A DNA stretch of 64,000 nt from assembly GCA_947475245.1 (NCBI GenBank), contig CANJLW010000022.1:1-64000 (forward strand), read 5' to 3'. Numbering within the stretch: position 1 is the stretch's first letter; each line of letters begins with the position of its first letter. Positions 47,211 through 53,752 of this stretch are shown here, in pieces. The DNA comes from Acetobacteraceae bacterium. GTDB lineage: Bacteria > Pseudomonadota > Alphaproteobacteria > Acetobacterales > Acetobacteraceae. The notes under the pieces are model-generated. The model worked only from the letters and a program-made list of their open reading frames with translations. It had not been told where the DNA came from and did no database searches. The position numbers and the translations under genes are program-made.

Positions 47211-48442
47211 ACCGCGCCGTCGCCTGGTCGGCGATCGAGGCCGTTGCCGCCGCGCTGTTTTCCGCCGTCGCCGCCTTCGCCATCGCGCGCATCGCGGGCC
47301 CGGCGGAGCTGGGCATCGGTTCCGCCGCCGTATCGGTGCACGTACTGCTCTGGGTCGCCGTAAACGGGTTGTTCGCCGACGCGCTGGCGCAGGCCGAGCG
47401 GGTGGGTGAGACGGTGGCGGGGGGGGCTTGGCGGGCGTCTGTTGCTTTGGGATGTCTGGCGGCCCTGGTGCAGGCGGGATCGGGTTGGGCATTGTCCGCC
47501 GCGTTCGACGATCCGCGCCTGATCGCCATGAGCCTGCTGCTCGCGCTGCCGCTGCCCCTCGTCGGCGCGGGAGGTGCGCGCCAGGGCATGCTGACCCGCG
47601 CCCGAGCCTATCGCCGCCTCGCGCTGCGCACCCTGTTCGGCCAGGGCACAGGCGCGGTCTGCGGCATTGCCCTGGCCTGGGCCGGTTACGGCGCCTGGGC
47701 GCTGGTCGCGCAACAAACCATCGCCTCCGCCCTCGGCGCCTGCATATTGTTGATCGGCTGGCGTCCGGAACCGTCGGGATCGTGGGGCGGGGTTGCCGCC
47801 CTGTTGCGCGTCGGCCTGCCGCTGACCGCCAGCACGCTGACCCAGATCGGGCGCTATCGGCTGTTCGTGCTGCTGATCGGTGCCTCCGCCGGGCCGGAGG
47901 CCCTGGGCCAGGTCCACATCGCCTTTCGCCTGGTCGATACGGTCAAAGAAACAGTCTTCACCGCGCTGTGGCGACTGATGCTGCCGGCGCTGGCCGAACA
48001 CAGCCGCGATCCCGTCGCCATGCTCGCCCGCGTCGATCTGTTCCTGCGCCGCTCCGCCGCCGCGACCATGCCGCTGTGCGCCGCGTTGGCGATGGCGCTG
48101 CCGTCGGTGGTGGCGGCGCTGTTCGGCCCGGTCTGGCAACCCGCCGGCATCGCCGCCCTGCCGCTGGTCGGACTGATGGCGCTGCTGGCATTGATGTTCC
48201 CGTCCGGCGTCGCCCTGGTCGCGGCCGGACAGGCGCATTTCACGCTGTATGCCAATCTGGCGGGCCTGACGGCGACGGTGCTGTTCGCGCTGATCGCGCG
48301 CCCGACGGACGCCTGGGGCGCGGTGATGGTTTGGTGTTCCGCGCAGGTGTTCGTGACGCCCTATGCGCTGTGGACGAACGGCAGAGCACTCCGCGTCGGG
48401 CCGTTGCGACCGCTGACCGGGGCGTTGCTGCGCAAAATATAG
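47207..48442 (+). CDS. Oligosaccharide flippase (Wzx family)
   Basis: A 411-residue MATE/MOP-superfamily membrane protein with about twelve hydrophobic helices. It starts with a Wzx-like segment (AAALFSAVAAFAIARIAGPA) and continues ELGIGSAAVSVHVLLWVAVN. It should flip lipid-linked repeat units to the periplasm for polymerisation. The ATG overlaps the preceding stop as ATGA. It is the last gene of the EPS operon. Its stop (48442) lies beside the tracrRNA terminator hairpin, so this transcript and the tracrRNA converge. Confidence 0.88.
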   Translation: MNRAVAWSAIEAVAAALFSAVAAFAIARIAGPAELGIGSAAVSVHVLLWVAVNGLFADALAQAERVGETVAGGAWRASVALGCLAALVQAGSGWALSAAFDDPRLIAMSLLLALPLPLVGAGGARQGMLTRARAYRRLALRTLFGQGTGAVCGIALAWAGYGAWALVAQQTIASALGACILLIGWRPEPSGSWGGVAALLRVGLPLTASTLTQIGRYRLFVLLIGASAGPEALGQVHIAFRLVDTVKETVFTALWRLMLPALAEHSRDPVAMLARVDLFLRRSAAATMPLCAALAMALPSVVAALFGPVWQPAGIAALPLVGLMALLALMFPSGVALVAAGQAHFTLYANLAGLTATVLFALIARPTDAWGAVMVWCSAQVFVTPYALWTNGRALRVGPLRPLTGALLRKI

Positions 48443-48537
48443 AATCCCGCTCGGCTTGTTGCCAAGCCGAGCGGTAATCCATCAAGTGGTTCGAAAACCA
48501 CCTTGCCGTGGCTTTCCGACCGATTTCCCTATGGCCA
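48434..48537 (-). ncRNA. tracrRNA, antisense to the cas9 upstream region
   Basis: Read on the minus strand. The anti-repeat is complementary to the CRISPR repeat over 48509-48537 region: 26 of 29 positions match between 48505 and 48533, with one of the three differences a G-U wobble and two mismatches giving a small bulge. Directly after it comes AAGG and a hairpin (GTGGTT/AACCAC, UUCG-like loop, 48484-48504). The 3' end is an 11-bp perfect hairpin at 48447-48474 followed by GATTCTATATTTT. The layout matches the Neisseria II-C tracrRNA, which also has AAGG after the anti-repeat. A TTGACA (minus strand, 48560-48565) is a possible -35. Length about 95-105 nt. The 5' end is estimated. Confidence 0.85.
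48447..48474 (-). terminator. Rho-independent-type terminator of the tracrRNA
   Basis: CCGCTCGGCTT and AAGCCGAGCGG pair over 11 bp with a 6-nt loop. On the minus strand the stem is followed by a U-rich tail (GATTCTATATTTT). It starts 5 bp after the flippase stop, so it may also stop that convergent plus-strand transcript, although no T-run is present on that side. Confidence 0.75.
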
Positions 48538-48593
48538 TTTCCACATAACAATGGCCTCCTGTCAACATAAAAACGGACACAGGAAATTCGATC

Positions 48594-51500
48594 ATGCGCA
48601 TCTTCGGCATCGACGGCGGAATCGCCTCCATCGGCTGGGCAGTCATCGAAACCGACGACGAAACGCTGTCCATCGTCGCCGCGGGCACCCGCATGTTCGA
48701 CGCGCCGGAAACCGCGAAGGAACGGACGCCCACCGCCGCGGTCCGACGCCTCCACCGCGGGCAACGCCGGGTCATCCGCAGACGCCGTCAGCGCATGGCC
48801 AAACTTCGCCACCTGTTCGTCGAAACCGGCCTGATCGCCGATGCCGAGCGAGATGCCCTGGCACCGAAAAAGGGCGAAGCCCGCATCGACCCGTGGACAC
48901 TTCGCGCCGCCGCCCTCCAACGCCCCCTCACCGGCCCCGAACTCGCCCAGGTACTCGGCCATATCGCCCGCCATCGGGGCTTTCGTTCCAACGCCAAGCG
49001 CGACAACGCCGCACCCGCCAACAGCGAAACCTCTAAAATGAAGCTCGGCATTGCCACCACAACCGAGCGCCTCGCCCAGTATCGCACCGTCGGCGAACTC
49101 TTCGCCACGCACCCCGACTACAAAGACCGCAAACACAATCGCGGCCTCAATTTCGACCGCTCCATCCTGCGCTCCGATCACGAGCACGAAATCCGCGCAC
49201 TGTTCGCCGAACAGCGCCGACTCGGCAACCCGCTGGCGACCGAGGCGCTGGAAACCACGTTCGCCGACATCGCCTTTTCCCAACTGCCCCTGCAGGACAG
49301 CGAGCACCTCCTCGCCGCCTGCCCGTTCGAACCCGACCGGAAACGCACCGCCCGCCGCGGCTACGCCTTCGAGATGTTTCGCCTGCTGTCCCGACTTGCC
49401 GCAATCCGCCTGACCGAGCGCGGCAAGGATTGGCCCCTGACCCCGGAGCAGATCGCCAAGGTCGCCGACAATTTCGGCGCACAGAAAAAGCTGACCTGGA
49501 AGTGGCTGCGCGCGACGCTCGACATCCCCGCAACCGTCCGCTTCGCCGGCATCGCGCCAAAAGACGAAATCCACGACTTCGTCGCCCGCACGGGAGCCGC
49601 CGCCGAAGGAACCGCCACGCTGCGCAAAACCCTCGGCGACGCGGCTTGGCACCGCCTGATGCAAGCCCCGGAACGGCGTGATCGCATCGCCGAAGTGTTA
49701 ACCTTCCGCGAGGACCCGGCCTCCGTCCGGCGCGGGCTGGAAGAAGCCGGCGTGATTGGCGATATCCTCGACGCGCTGATGCACGGCGTCGAAACCGGCG
49801 CATTTTCTCAGTTCACCCGGGCCGGCCACATCTCCGCCAAGGCCGCCCGCAACCTGTTGCCCGGCCTGCAACGCGGGTTGGTCTATTCCGCCGCCTGCGA
49901 GGACATCGGCTATAACCACGCCGAACAGGCCGAATTCAAGCTGGACGATGTGCGCAACCCGATCGCCCGCAAGGCCGCCGGAGAAATGGTCAAGCAGGTC
50001 CGCGCGATGGCCGCGAAGTTCGGCAAACCCGACTTCATTCACGTCGAGCTCGCCCGCGACATCGGCAAAAGCGCCGAAGAGCGCGACGAAATCAAACGCG
50101 GCATCGACAAGCGCAACGCCGTGCGCGACCGCCTGCGCCTGGAACTGGCCGGCATCCTGGGCCGCGACCCGCGCCTGGAAGACCTTGTCCGCTACGAACT
50201 CTGGAAAGAACAGAACGGCGAGTGCCTCTACACCGGTGAAAAAATCCTCCCCGCCTGGCTGTCTGCCGGCGACAACCGCGTGCAGGTCGATCACATCCTG
50301 CCGTGGAGCCGCTTTGGCGACGACAGTTTCGCCAACAAGACCCTGTGCATGGCAAGCGCCAACCAGCGCAAAAAAGGCCGCACCCCATTCGAGTGGTTTG
50401 AGGCCGAGCGACCCGAGGACTGGCCGATCTACGTCGCCCGGGTAGAAGCGTGCAAGGAGATGAAAGGCCGCAAGAAGGGCGGCTTTTATCTGCGCAAGAA
50501 CGCCGGGGAGGTGGAAGAAACCTTCCGCAACCGCAATCTGGGCGACACCCGCTATGCCACGCGCCTGCTGCTGGGACTGCTGAAACGCGGCTATCCCGAA
50601 ACGGAGGTGCGTGCCCGCCCAGGCCCCCTGACCGCCAAGCTGCGTCGCGCCTGGGGCGTGGAGGACCTGAAAAAGGGCCCGGACGGCAAGCGCCTGGACG
50701 ACGACCGCCACCATGCGCTGGACGCCATCGTGGTGGCGGCGACCACGCAATCGATGCTGCAAAAACTAACCGTCGCGGCGCAGGAAGCCGAACGCAAGGG
50801 GCTGCCGAGGGGATTCGATTTCGACTTCGTGCAAGCCCCGGCGGCGGGATTCCGAGAGGTCGTGCGCGCGACGATCGAGGGTGTTTTCGTCTCCCGCCCC
50901 GAGCGCCGCCGAGCGCGGGGGGAGGCGCATGCCGCGACGATCAAGCAGGTGCGGGAGGTCGACGGCAAGGATGTGGTGTTTGAGCGCAAGGCGGTGGAGA
51001 AGTTGGAGCTGAAGGATTTGGACAAAATCCCCGTGCCCTCACCGTACGGGAAAATCGTCGATCCCGCGAAGCTGCGGGACGCGTTGGTCGAGACGCTGCG
51101 TGCCTGGATCGCAGCCGGGAAGCCGAAGGATAAGCCGCCGCTATCGCCGAAGGGGGATGTGATCCGGAAGGTGCGGTTGGAAACGACCGACAAAGTGGCG
51201 GTATCCGTACGCGGCGGCACGGCGGATCGCGGGGATATGGCGCGGGTGGACGTGTTCGCGAAGGCGAACAAGCGAGGGAAGCGAGAATTCTATCTGGTGC
51301 CGATCTACCCGCACCATGTCGCGGATCGGGTCGCCTGGCCCGTGCCGCCGGATAGGGCTGTACGTGCGTACAAGACCGAGGCGGAATGGACACTGATAGA
51401 TGCAACCTATGATTTTCTGTTCAGCCTAAACCAAAACAGCCTTGTGGAAGTTGTGACCCCGGATGGGGTATCGTTCCAGGGCTATTTCAGAGGGCTGGAT

Positions 51501-51671
51501 CGAACCACCGGCGCAATCGCACTGGCCGCGCCGATCAGTTCAAGAATATTGCGACGTGGAATCGGCGCCAAGACGCTGTTCAGAATGCAGAAGCTCTTTA
51601 TTGACCGCCTCGGAAAGATAACCCCTGTCCAAGGGGAGGTTCGCACATGGCATGGCGAGGCGTGCACATAA
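48594..51671 (+). CDS. cas9: Cas9 endonuclease, type II-C
   Basis: An RNA-guided DNA endonuclease of 1025 aa, the compact size of subtype II-C. RuvC-I is MRIFGIDGGIASIGWAVIE with D7. The arginine-rich bridge helix spans about 51-70 (RRLHRGQRRVIRRRRQRMAK). RuvC-II is FIHVELARDIG with E485. HNH is VQVDHILPWSRFGDD with catalytic H567 and N590 in ASANQRKKGRTPFEW. RuvC-III is DDRHHALDAIVVAA with H707 and D710. Residues after about 730 would hold the WED and PAM-interacting regions. All catalytic residues are intact, so it is predicted active. AGGAAA precedes the ATG. The gene overlaps cas1 by 25 bp. No csn2 or cas4 is present. Confidence 0.97.
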   Translation: MRIFGIDGGIASIGWAVIETDDETLSIVAAGTRMFDAPETAKERTPTAAVRRLHRGQRRVIRRRRQRMAKLRHLFVETGLIADAERDALAPKKGEARIDPWTLRAAALQRPLTGPELAQVLGHIARHRGFRSNAKRDNAAPANSETSKMKLGIATTTERLAQYRTVGELFATHPDYKDRKHNRGLNFDRSILRSDHEHEIRALFAEQRRLGNPLATEALETTFADIAFSQLPLQDSEHLLAACPFEPDRKRTARRGYAFEMFRLLSRLAAIRLTERGKDWPLTPEQIAKVADNFGAQKKLTWKWLRATLDIPATVRFAGIAPKDEIHDFVARTGAAAEGTATLRKTLGDAAWHRLMQAPERRDRIAEVLTFREDPASVRRGLEEAGVIGDILDALMHGVETGAFSQFTRAGHISAKAARNLLPGLQRGLVYSAACEDIGYNHAEQAEFKLDDVRNPIARKAAGEMVKQVRAMAAKFGKPDFIHVELARDIGKSAEERDEIKRGIDKRNAVRDRLRLELAGILGRDPRLEDLVRYELWKEQNGECLYTGEKILPAWLSAGDNRVQVDHILPWSRFGDDSFANKTLCMASANQRKKGRTPFEWFEAERPEDWPIYVARVEACKEMKGRKKGGFYLRKNAGEVEETFRNRNLGDTRYATRLLLGLLKRGYPETEVRARPGPLTAKLRRAWGVEDLKKGPDGKRLDDDRHHALDAIVVAATTQSMLQKLTVAAQEAERKGLPRGFDFDFVQAPAAGFREVVRATIEGVFVSRPERRRARGEAHAATIKQVREVDGKDVVFERKAVEKLELKDLDKIPVPSPYGKIVDPAKLRDALVETLRAWIAAGKPKDKPPLSPKGDVIRKVRLETTDKVAVSVRGGTADRGDMARVDVFAKANKRGKREFYLVPIYPHHVADRVAWPVPPDRAVRAYKTEAEWTLIDATYDFLFSLNQNSLVEVVTPDGVSFQGYFRGLDRTTGAIALAAPISSRILRRGIGAKTLFRMQKLFIDRLGKITPVQGEVRTWHGEACT

Positions 51672-52537
51672 CCCAGGCTGCCCGACTGTCCCTGACGGAC
51701 TCGCAACTTGTCGTCAACCGCGAAGACGGCGAGATCCGCCTGCCCATCGAGGATATCGCCTGGATGGTGATCGACACCCCGCAAGTGTCGATCACCACGG
51801 CCTTGCTGTCGGCCTGCATGGACGCCGGCATGGCGATCATTACAACGGATCGCACCCATACCCCCAGCGGTCTGATCCTGCCGTTCCACCGCCACCACCG
51901 GCAGGCGGCCATCGCCGCGATGCAGATCGGAACCTCCGCCCCACTGAAAAAGCGGCTCTGGCAAATCGTGGTACAGGCCAAGATCGCCAATCAGGCGACA
52001 TCGTTGGAAACCGTCGGGCAGGATGCCGCGGCCTTGCGGTCCATGGCGCGACTGGTCGGCTCCGGCGATCCGGATAACGTGGAAGCCCGCGCCGCCCGTG
52101 CCTATTGGCCGCGTCTGTTCGTCGATTTCATCCGCGACGACGCCAACGACAAGCGCAACGCCCTGCTGAATTATGGCTATGCCGTCATCCGATCCGCCGT
52201 CGCCCGCGCCTTGGTCGCCGCCGGCCTGTTGCCCGCCTTCGGCATCAACCATGCCAGCATCGTCAATGCCTTCAACCTCGCCGATGACATGGTCGAACCG
52301 TTTCGTCCCTTCGTCGATCGCGCGGTCTGGACCCTGACCGACAAGGGCCGCATCGCCCAAGGCGCAACCACGGTGGAAGAACGCCGGACTCTGGCATCGC
52401 TGCCGACGCTGGAAACCCGCCTGGGCGGCGAAACCGTCACCCTGCTGGTCGCGACCGAGCGGGTCGCCGAAAGCCTGGTGCGCGCCATGGAAATGGCAAG
52501 CCCGCCCTTGCTGCTTTTGCCGAAGCTGGAACGCTGA
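51647..52537 (+). CDS. cas1: Cas1 integrase
   Basis: The 296-residue metal-dependent integrase that, with Cas2, inserts new spacers. The type II Cas1 N-terminus reads AWRGVHITQAARLSLTDSQL. Catalytic residues are E147 in NVEARAARAYWPRLF, H202 in FGINHASIVNAF, and the D213/D214 and E217 region in NLADDMVEPFRP. The ATG lies 25 bp inside cas9, and the stop overlaps the cas2 ATG by one base (TGATG). All key residues are present, so adaptation should be functional. Confidence 0.96.
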   Translation: MAWRGVHITQAARLSLTDSQLVVNREDGEIRLPIEDIAWMVIDTPQVSITTALLSACMDAGMAIITTDRTHTPSGLILPFHRHHRQAAIAAMQIGTSAPLKKRLWQIVVQAKIANQATSLETVGQDAAALRSMARLVGSGDPDNVEARAARAYWPRLFVDFIRDDANDKRNALLNYGYAVIRSAVARALVAAGLLPAFGINHASIVNAFNLADDMVEPFRPFVDRAVWTLTDKGRIAQGATTVEERRTLASLPTLETRLGGETVTLLVATERVAESLVRAMEMASPPLLLLPKLER

Positions 52538-52866
52538 TGCCCGAGTCGGAGGTCAGATACGTGTGGCTCTTCGTTTTTTTCGATTTGCCCGTCGGCACCA
52601 AGCCGGAACGACGGGATGCAACGCGCTTTCGCAATTTTTTGAAGGACGATGGGTATATGATGCTGCAATACTCGGTCTATTCGCGGGTCTGCCGCGGTGA
52701 GGACAGCGCCATGAAGCACATCGCCCGTGTTACAAAAAACCTGCCGGGCAGAGGCAGCATTCGCGCCCTGCAAGTGACCGACCGACAATACTCCCGCATG
52801 CACCTGCTGTTGGGCGAGGCAACAAAAACCGAGTCCGTCGGCTCCCGCCAGATGGTTCTGCTGTGA
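52537..52866 (+). CDS. cas2: Cas2
   Basis: A 109-residue ferredoxin-fold partner of Cas1 in spacer acquisition. It has VRYVWLFVFFDLPVGTKPER with the conserved D16, then RFRNFLKDDGYMMLQYSVYS and LQVTDRQYSRMHLLLGE, all standard for type II Cas2. Its start overlaps the cas1 stop by one base. The first CRISPR repeat begins 58 bp after the stop. A reading frame opening at its stop codon (52863) is only the CRISPR array and is not a gene. Confidence 0.95.
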   Translation: MPESEVRYVWLFVFFDLPVGTKPERRDATRFRNFLKDDGYMMLQYSVYSRVCRGEDSAMKHIARVTKNLPGRGSIRALQVTDRQYSRMHLLLGEATKTESVGSRQMVLL

Positions 52867-52924: not shown

Positions 52925-53752
52925 AGCCTACCACAGGGAAATCGGTAGGGAAGCCACGGCCCGCGCCGTCGCGCATCACTTCCAACCAGGAGCCTACCAC
53001 AGGGAAATCGGTAGGGAAGCCACGGCGGCCGATATGACGATCACGAGCACGACGGTAGCCTACCACAGGGAAATCGGTAGGGAAGCCACGGCTCGTTTTC
53101 CGTTCGGCTTCAGATTCAGCGGAGCCTACCACAGGGAAATCGGTAGGGAAGCCACGGCAGCTCGCCTGTGTCACCGACACGGAATTCAAGCCTACCACAG
53201 GGAAATCGGTAGGGAAGCCACGGCCGACGTTGCCGGTCAGAAAAATCTGCGAACAGCCTACCACAGGGAAATCGGTAGGGAAGCCACGGCCCAACCCGAT
53301 ACGCTTGTCGCCAAGCCACAAGCCTACCACAGGGAAATCGGTAGGGAAGCCACGGCTCTTCGGACGCGTCGGAACTGCGTCGGCTGAGCCTACCACAGGG
53401 AAATCGGTAGGGAAGCCACGGCCTGGTCAGCCTGCGGCGTCAGCAGCGCCAGAGCCTACCACAGGGAAATCGGTAGGGAAGCCACGGCAACGATGAGCGT
53501 CGCGTGCTCGCGATGTCGAGCCTACCACAGGGAAATCGGTAGGGAAGCCACGGCCGGCAGGGCGTTGAACCGAACCTCGATCCGAGCCTACCACAGGGAA
53601 ATCGGTAGGGAAGCCACGGCTGAAATTTCATGGCACCACTCCTTAAATTCAGCCTACCACAGGGAAATCGGTAGGGAAGCCACGGCGGCATTAAGTCCGG
53701 ACTCGCCCGCCGTTTCAGCCTACCACAGGGAAATCGGTAGGGAAGCCACGGC
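52925..53752 (-). CRISPR. Type II-C CRISPR array: 13 repeats, 12 spacers
   Basis: Thirteen 36-bp repeats, all identical as far as can be read, start at 52925 and every 66 bp to 53717. They enclose twelve 30-bp spacers. On the plus strand the repeat begins AGCCTACCACAGGG and ends GGGAAGCCACGGC. Read on the minus strand it begins GCCGTGGCTTCCC and ends CTGTGGTAGGCT, the same shape as the Neisseria II-C repeat, and this is the strand the tracrRNA complements. crRNAs are therefore transcribed leftward, toward cas2. The minus-strand repeat end has a TGnTAnnnT match to an extended -10, so each spacer could have its own promoter. Neither terminal repeat is degenerate. Confidence 0.98.

Follow-up and report, generated by a model that had tools for sequence, protein, structure and literature searches.

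A probable tracrRNA gene directed away from cas9 in a type II-C CRISPR-Cas locus of an Acetobacteraceae bacterium

Organization of the locus

The window analysed here is the first 64,000 nucleotides of contig CANJLW010000022.1 (assembly GCA_947475245.1), from an Acetobacteraceae bacterium whose genome amounts to 5,229,843 bases in 89 contigs. It carries a complete type II-C CRISPR-Cas9 locus in the order cas9-cas1-cas2-array. On the plus strand lie cas9 (48594–51671, 1025 amino acids; NCBIfam TIGR01865, 572.7 bits), cas1 (51647–52537; TIGR03639, type II Cas1, 301.9 bits) and cas2 (52537–52866; TIGR01573, 80.8 bits). They are followed by an array of 13 identical 36-nt repeats with a period of 66 (52925–53752, minus strand). 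The NCBIfam scan of 12 open reading frames between 42662 and 59442 returned neither csn2 nor cas4 among the matches listed; with cas9, cas1 and cas2 alone, the locus is therefore of type II-C. The closest named relative is a contig of an Acetobacteraceae metagenome-assembled genome (71% identity). A Cas9 was matched in 38 of 299 genomes at the level of the order and in 71 of 385 at that of the class, the host genome being counted in both.

The crRNAs would be read from the minus strand of the array. In this orientation the repeat of the array at 52925–53752 ends in TGGTAGGCT, resembling an extended -10 box, and repeats in other clades end in GCTACACT or GCTATAAC. In Neisseria meningitidis, the array has its own promoter within each repeat. 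Transcription of the array opposite to the cas genes is what the cited portion of Fonfara et al. (PMC3936727) describes for types II-B and II-C, with II-C arrays running against the cas operon. Comparison of the array with 50,697 phage records returned three records at E values of 0.07–0.9, which we treated as chance; this search gave no spacer target and no PAM could be derived from it.

Upstream of cas9, a flippase-like gene ends at 48442 and cas9 starts at 48594. The gap between them contains the segment studied here.

A repeat-like segment in the gap

Direct comparison with the repeat confirmed an anti-repeat at 48505–48533 on the strand opposite to cas9, as the initial annotation of this DNA had claimed: 26 of 29 positions are identical to the CRISPR repeat read on the plus strand of the array, the matched part being the last 29 nt of the 36-nt repeat in that reading. 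The duplex of the anti-repeat with the crRNA repeat was predicted at -56.8 kcal/mol. When the window outside the array was cut into 60-nt pieces in steps of 20 on both strands, the minus strand of the segment reached -58.0 kcal/mol with the repeat, compared with -46.6 kcal/mol for the best other piece. The plus strand of the anti-repeat segment gave only -25.6 kcal/mol.

A two-repeat query against the host genome found the site at E = 3.8e-5 and its next match outside the array at E = 0.87, and a query with the tracrRNA region itself returned the site and the 13 array repeats. Apart from the array, the region 48434–48540 is the only place in the 5.2-Mb genome that clearly matches the repeat. 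A better anti-repeat elsewhere in the genome, which had been named as the finding that would overturn the tracrRNA reading, was thus not found by these genome-wide queries.

We collected related loci to see how the segment varies. From 32 of 37 relatives in the order we took 33 loci around cas9, leaving out G169, G214, G253, G263 and G296 with short matches. The class search gave 40 more, with 29 other relatives of lower score or partial sequence left out. L040 and L041 were added, while L039, apparently the same contig as G203, and the more distant L042–L049 were left out. Including the window, 76 loci were examined, and an array was detected in 57.

In 16 of these loci the anti-repeat was compared with repeats position by position. 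It pairs with the repeat of its own locus at a mean of 24.56 of 26 positions (minimum 23) and with repeats of the other loci at a mean of 22.84; none of 5000 permutations did as well. Several columns show double changes on the repeat and anti-repeat sides (for example C-G to G-C and U-A to C-G). On the 5' side of the 26 paired columns, ten more match poorly in most of the 16 loci, which fits a transcription start at the anti-repeat.

Position and orientation in related loci

We called a layout standard when the best non-array match to the repeat exceeded the best of 30 shuffled repeats and lay upstream of cas9 on the same strand as in the window. This was the case in 49 of the 57 array-bearing loci, the window included. 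The exceptions differ in kind. At L055, a small inverted second array had served as the reference, and the covariance model R2 described below finds a standard tracrRNA there; this second array has two repeats, upstream of cas9 and in opposite orientation to the repeats behind cas2. At L070, a stray repeat downstream scored higher, and the upstream match on the usual strand is weak. The anti-repeat of L075 lies on the same strand as cas9, 247 bp upstream, and that of L140 matches downstream. The matches at L120, L139, L142 and L145 were not significant. Upstream placement on the opposite strand is the rule in the alphaproteobacterial II-C loci examined. The predicted transcription opposite to cas9 and toward the flippase gene therefore stands, while the earlier description of the RNA as hidden does not, as this is the usual layout.

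In a survey of uncultivated microbes, the commonest tracrRNA candidates were reverse-oriented (69.8%) and upstream (79.2%) (PMC10278012), and the window shares both features of that catalogue. The cited section of Gasiunas et al. states that tracrRNA position and orientation vary and are generally conserved within a Cas9 clade (PMC7606464), and that of Fonfara et al. that place and direction differ within groups (PMC3936727). A figure legend on the II-C loci of Bombella apis, also of the Acetobacteraceae, gives the order tracrRNA, cas operon, array, as found here (PMC12282179).

Hairpins and 3' element

The predicted tracrRNA covers about 97 nt (48434–48530, minus strand), as judged from the covariance model, fold z-scores and promoter spacing, with its ends inferred. 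Behind the anti-repeat, a nexus hairpin of 8 bp with a UUCG loop (48484–48503) is followed by a short linker and a 3' hairpin (48439–48482), and these two hairpins make up the minimum-energy fold of this part (48434–48504). The 3' hairpin consists of five outer pairs (48482–48478 with 48443–48439), a 3+3 internal loop (UUA/GAU) and an inner stem of 12 bp with a GCAA loop (48474–48447), after which comes AUUUU at 48434–48438. Fold z-scores against 200 dinucleotide shuffles each were -7.2 for 48434–48535 and -8.2 for 48434–48504. The order of anti-repeat, hairpin and stem proposed in the initial annotation holds, with a stem of 12 bp in place of its 11 bp.

Both hairpins covary among relatives. 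In an alignment of 24 sequences made with model R2, 98.5% of cells are paired and 16 of 17 pairs show double changes: all 5 modelled in the nexus and, for the 3' hairpin, all 9 modelled inner pairs and 2 of the 3 outer ones. The covariation score was 0.818, compared with 0.252 in shuffled and at most 0.211 in slid versions; as this alignment was fitted to the model, these figures lean towards it. An earlier MAFFT alignment evaluated with RNAalifold gave double changes in 15 of 22 pairs.

In the 3' element, the arrangement GGAUUACC, stem, GGGAUUCC is conserved, as are outer pairs (GGA with UCC) and bases in the internal loop. The U-run is weak, missing or interrupted in several relatives (e.g. 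L050, L117 and L114). Of the terminator with a U-rich tail that had been annotated, the strong stem and the AUUUU are present in the window, but the tail is not conserved. The conserved inner stem and outer pairs together with the poor U-run suggest that the 3' hairpin probably belongs to the Cas9 handle besides acting as a terminator. In the window, the predicted 3' end with its U-run (48434–48442) runs antisense to the flippase-like gene, across its final codons and stop.

Covariance model and distribution

Model R2 has 17 pairs and was built from 21 training sequences, the window among them. It replaced a model R1, in which a helix inside the anti-repeat was judged spurious. R2 matches the window at 48435–48533 with 84.8 bits, a score obtained on one of its own training sequences. 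Of 230 R2 matches with E up to 0.001 among the 76 loci, 25 score at least 49.8 bits, one in each of 25 loci. The 205 weaker ones, none above 40.1 bits, fall in these 25 loci too and, judged by position, mostly within arrays. The remaining 51 loci gave no match (E up to 0.001, default filters).

A covariance-model search had been suggested as a check of the tracrRNA, and R2 bore it out in the order. With stricter filters and E up to 1e-8, R2 matched 18 of 299 genomes. All 18 belong to the 38 genomes in which Cas9 was matched, and the 261 remaining genomes gave no hit; the two scans were compared by shared genome handles among the rows listed. Three matched genomes, G263, G169 and G147, contributed nothing to the training set. 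The RNA of G263 adjoins a cas9 start cut by a contig end, and that of G169 a broken cas9. The other 20 Cas9-bearing genomes had no R2 match. Two genomes of the window's own genus, G113 and G283, encode a distant Cas9 (29–35% identity over parts) and have no R2 match. There seem, from these sequences, to be two Cas9 lineages with different tracrRNA families within one genus.

Rfam gave no family at the gathering threshold in the window. RF02589 (Spy779816, a small RNA of Streptococcus pyogenes) reached 26.4 bits, far below its gathering score of 67 (E = 0.028). Its full model, positions 1–88, aligns to 48520–48437 of the minus strand, a mostly structural alignment that could be either chance or a common two-hairpin shape. 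A literature search for the name Spy779816 found nothing.

Promoter region

A candidate -35 box TTGACA for the tracrRNA lies on the minus strand at 48560–48565, with 28 nt between it and the cas9 ATG. Upstream of the anti-repeat, 22 of 23 loci have a hexamer that agrees with TTGACA at five or more of its six positions, compared with a mean of 6.3 and a maximum of 12 of 23 in 500 rounds of shuffling; the 23 loci include the near duplicates L113/L114 and L059/L060. By automatic pick, the box lies 46–50 nt before CCACGG in 20 of the 23 loci; a second copy in L117 fits this spacing by eye, and L116 and L064 are misfits. From this spacing, transcription of the tracrRNA is predicted to begin at about 48530; its -10 box, GGAAAT, matches poorly (3 of 6).

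The cas9 strand gave a different picture. Its promoter-like pairs scored a mean of 7.91 against 7.49 in shuffles and reached at least 8 in 17 of 23 loci (48% of shuffles), with the best sites scattered from -90 to -31. Under identical scoring the minus strand reached 8.74 against 7.46 in shuffles (18 of 23 loci). No cas9-strand promoter at a conserved position was found in the 23 loci, only the mild score excess. Of the divergent promoter region that the initial annotation had placed here, the tracrRNA -35 box is conserved in place, but a cas9 promoter at a fixed position was not recovered. With the -35 box just 28 nt away from the ATG, any separate promoter of cas9 would necessarily overlap that of the tracrRNA.

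Between the -35 box and the predicted start, the window has a 7-bp dyad, GGCCATT-N10-AATGGCC (48533–48556), equalled in none of 100 shuffles. Its sequence is not conserved in relatives. Dyads with arms of 6–8 bp occur in the tracrRNA promoter stretch of the window, L052, L053, L055, L056, L111 and L064. A search for a conserved operator found none: 7 of the 21 loci have arms of at least 6 bp (7% of shuffles), their sequences being unrelated. The dyads are possibly operators of different regulators.

A further motif, the DnaA-box-like TTATNCACA, precedes the tracrRNA -35 box in L111, L112 and L117, which belong to two families; its position hardly differs among them, 49–53 bp before the start of the cas9 alignment. 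It also occurs in L132 and L136. Within 300 bp of cas9 it is found in 5 of 76 loci, compared with 0.42 sites expected from its locus-wide density, and in the window it is absent.

Predicted fold of the free RNA

Folded alone (48434–48535), the RNA lost its nexus in the minimum-energy structure, and the anti-repeat paired with the nexus arm instead. The predicted self-occluding hairpin spans 48493–48516 of the minus strand, with 48516–48508 (GAAAGCCAC) pairing with 48501–48493 (GUGGUUUUC). With the crRNA repeat added, the nexus was predicted to form: co-folding with the minus-strand repeat, another check suggested beforehand, gave both the duplex and the nexus. When 20 nt of one spacer were included, duplex, nexus and inner stem were kept and the spacer paired with the outer part of the 3' hairpin.

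The alternative pairing recurs in the clade. In 19 of 24 members, CCAC in the anti-repeat is predicted to pair with the nexus arm at a probability above 0.5. Against nexus hairpins with permuted base pairs, the alternative duplex lay at or below the 0.05 level in 18 of 24, and the ensemble probability passed in 20 of 24, although L040 reached only 0.06 while nominally above the null. We applied a uniform test, in which the downstream 35 nt were shuffled, to the 15 of the 24 clade loci with an array repeat at hand (L055 left out) and to 29 loci of other alphaproteobacterial II-C clades; in the latter, an automatic procedure set the 3' end of the anti-repeat, and some of these ends may be misplaced. 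This test was passed by 12 of 15 clade loci and 3 of 29 others; mean self-occlusion probabilities were 0.73 and 0.22, and values above 0.4 were found in 14 of 15 and 7 of 29, respectively. A simpler duplex test was passed by 2 of 31 loci (the 29 others, L072 and the clade member L064). With lineages grouped by eye, the duplex test showed self-occlusion in 6 of 11 and not in 5; these self-occlusion counts are not independent, as related nexus sequences explain part of the agreement.

The anti-repeat side of the self-occluding helix hardly varies, and in this clade the nexus resembles the 5' end of the repeat (GUGGUUUUCC-like). The folding model thus predicts a free tracrRNA without a nexus, in which the lower half of the anti-repeat is concealed and its 5' half mostly open. 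Self-occlusion may be incidental to a nexus sequence that is retained for its contact with Cas9, or may be a trace of the origin of the nexus from a repeat. A switch triggered by crRNA, which would bind the open half, displace the mimic and free the nexus so that Cas9 does not take up empty tracrRNA, is a further possibility that we regard as unlikely.

Discussion

Taken together, the pairing, the covariation, the conserved place and strand and the co-occurrence with a Cas9 clade make it nearly certain, as far as sequence comparison can tell, that the minus strand of 48434–48530 encodes the tracrRNA of a complete type II-C locus and is transcribed away from cas9. The full II-C tracrRNA put forward in the initial annotation is supported by covariation in both repeat/anti-repeat and hairpins, by a box at nearly fixed distance and by genome-wide queries that returned no better anti-repeat. 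Points that weigh against it are the weak -10 box, the absence of an Rfam match at gathering score, the mutual occlusion of nexus and anti-repeat in the predicted free RNA, the pairing of a spacer with part of the 3' hairpin, the 8 loci of non-standard layout and the phage comparison without a spacer target. From these computed results we infer expression, exact ends, RNase III processing and Cas9 loading as follows. A promoter with its -35 box at 48565–48560 would start transcription at about 48530, directly at the anti-repeat. The RNA would head toward the flippase gene and end past the 3' hairpin, at a point where it is antisense to the flippase stop codon. Its anti-repeat would pair with the repeat part of the crRNAs, both RNAs coming from the minus strand, and RNase III would cut this duplex; such cleavage of the crRNA:tracrRNA duplex is expected from known type II systems. 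In the dual RNA, the nexus and the 3' hairpin would then serve for binding by Cas9.

Could the segment instead be a degenerate, stranded CRISPR repeat, the relic of an old array? Its resemblance to the repeat at 26 of 29 positions would be explained, and stray repeats do occur near arrays, as at L070. However, in relatives the segment is conserved together with the downstream hairpins and a box at near-fixed distance, its changes follow the repeat of each locus, and R2 sites occur in 18 genomes of the order, all with a Cas9 match, and in none of 261 without one. We therefore consider a relic highly improbable. It is just as hard to credit that the segment acts on the plus strand, within the cas9 leader, as a crRNA-like RNA that guides Cas9 to its own promoter in the manner of tracr-L. 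On that strand it does read as repeat followed by intergenic DNA, and read-through from the flippase gene is possible because the hairpin lacks a T-run on the plus side. Such a copy, however, pairs poorly with the crRNA repeat (-25.6 against -56.8 kcal/mol), and the minus-strand box sets the predicted start at the anti-repeat, so that a long tracrRNA would have no 5' guide. A weak promoter on the plus strand is conceivable.

A different proposal adds to the tracrRNA reading and does not compete with it: a real tracrRNA gene whose promoter overlaps that of cas9, the two being mutually exclusive and controlling each other reciprocally. The 28 nt between the -35 box and the cas9 ATG would force an overlap if cas9 had a promoter of its own, promoter-like scores on the cas9 strand mildly exceed those of shuffles (17 of 23 loci at 8 or more), and the window has a 7-bp dyad in its promoter space. 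Yet the excess in mean score is small (7.91 against 7.49), the sites scatter from -90 to -31, and cas9 may be transcribed from the polysaccharide genes upstream. We hold reciprocal control to be possible but somewhat improbable.

The tracrRNA of the window would be an ordinary one in an ordinary place, forming its own sequence family within a known kind. With type II-C tracrRNAs of alphaproteobacteria and others it has in common the anti-repeat, nexus, 3' hairpin and upstream opposite-strand place. Unlike them it forms its own sequence family, R2 matching 25 of 76 loci and none of the other 51. The likeness to RF02589 of S. pyogenes is a full-length structural alignment far below the gathering score. 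The self-occluding fold is the sole part that a specialist might not expect; no title or opening of an abstract among the papers listed in our literature searches concerns a self-occluding or refolding tracrRNA, which does not by itself prove absence. A comparable RNA is tracr-L of S. pyogenes, which can manage without the crRNA repeat, as a part of tracr-L itself pairs with the anti-repeat. In the cited part of PMC11417352, tracr-L acts as a natural single guide and represses the cas promoter; here the mimic would be the downstream nexus and no guide is seen. The start predicted at the anti-repeat from the -35 spacing would leave no room for a 5' guide extension of the tracr-L type, unless a second promoter lies further upstream.

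These results yield the likely guide scaffold of a compact II-C Cas9 clade and a covariance model that recognizes it. If the self-occluding fold is real, it would give the clade a built-in check by which Cas9 is loaded only once both RNAs are paired in full, and anyone designing guides for these Cas9 proteins would need to allow for the misfold.
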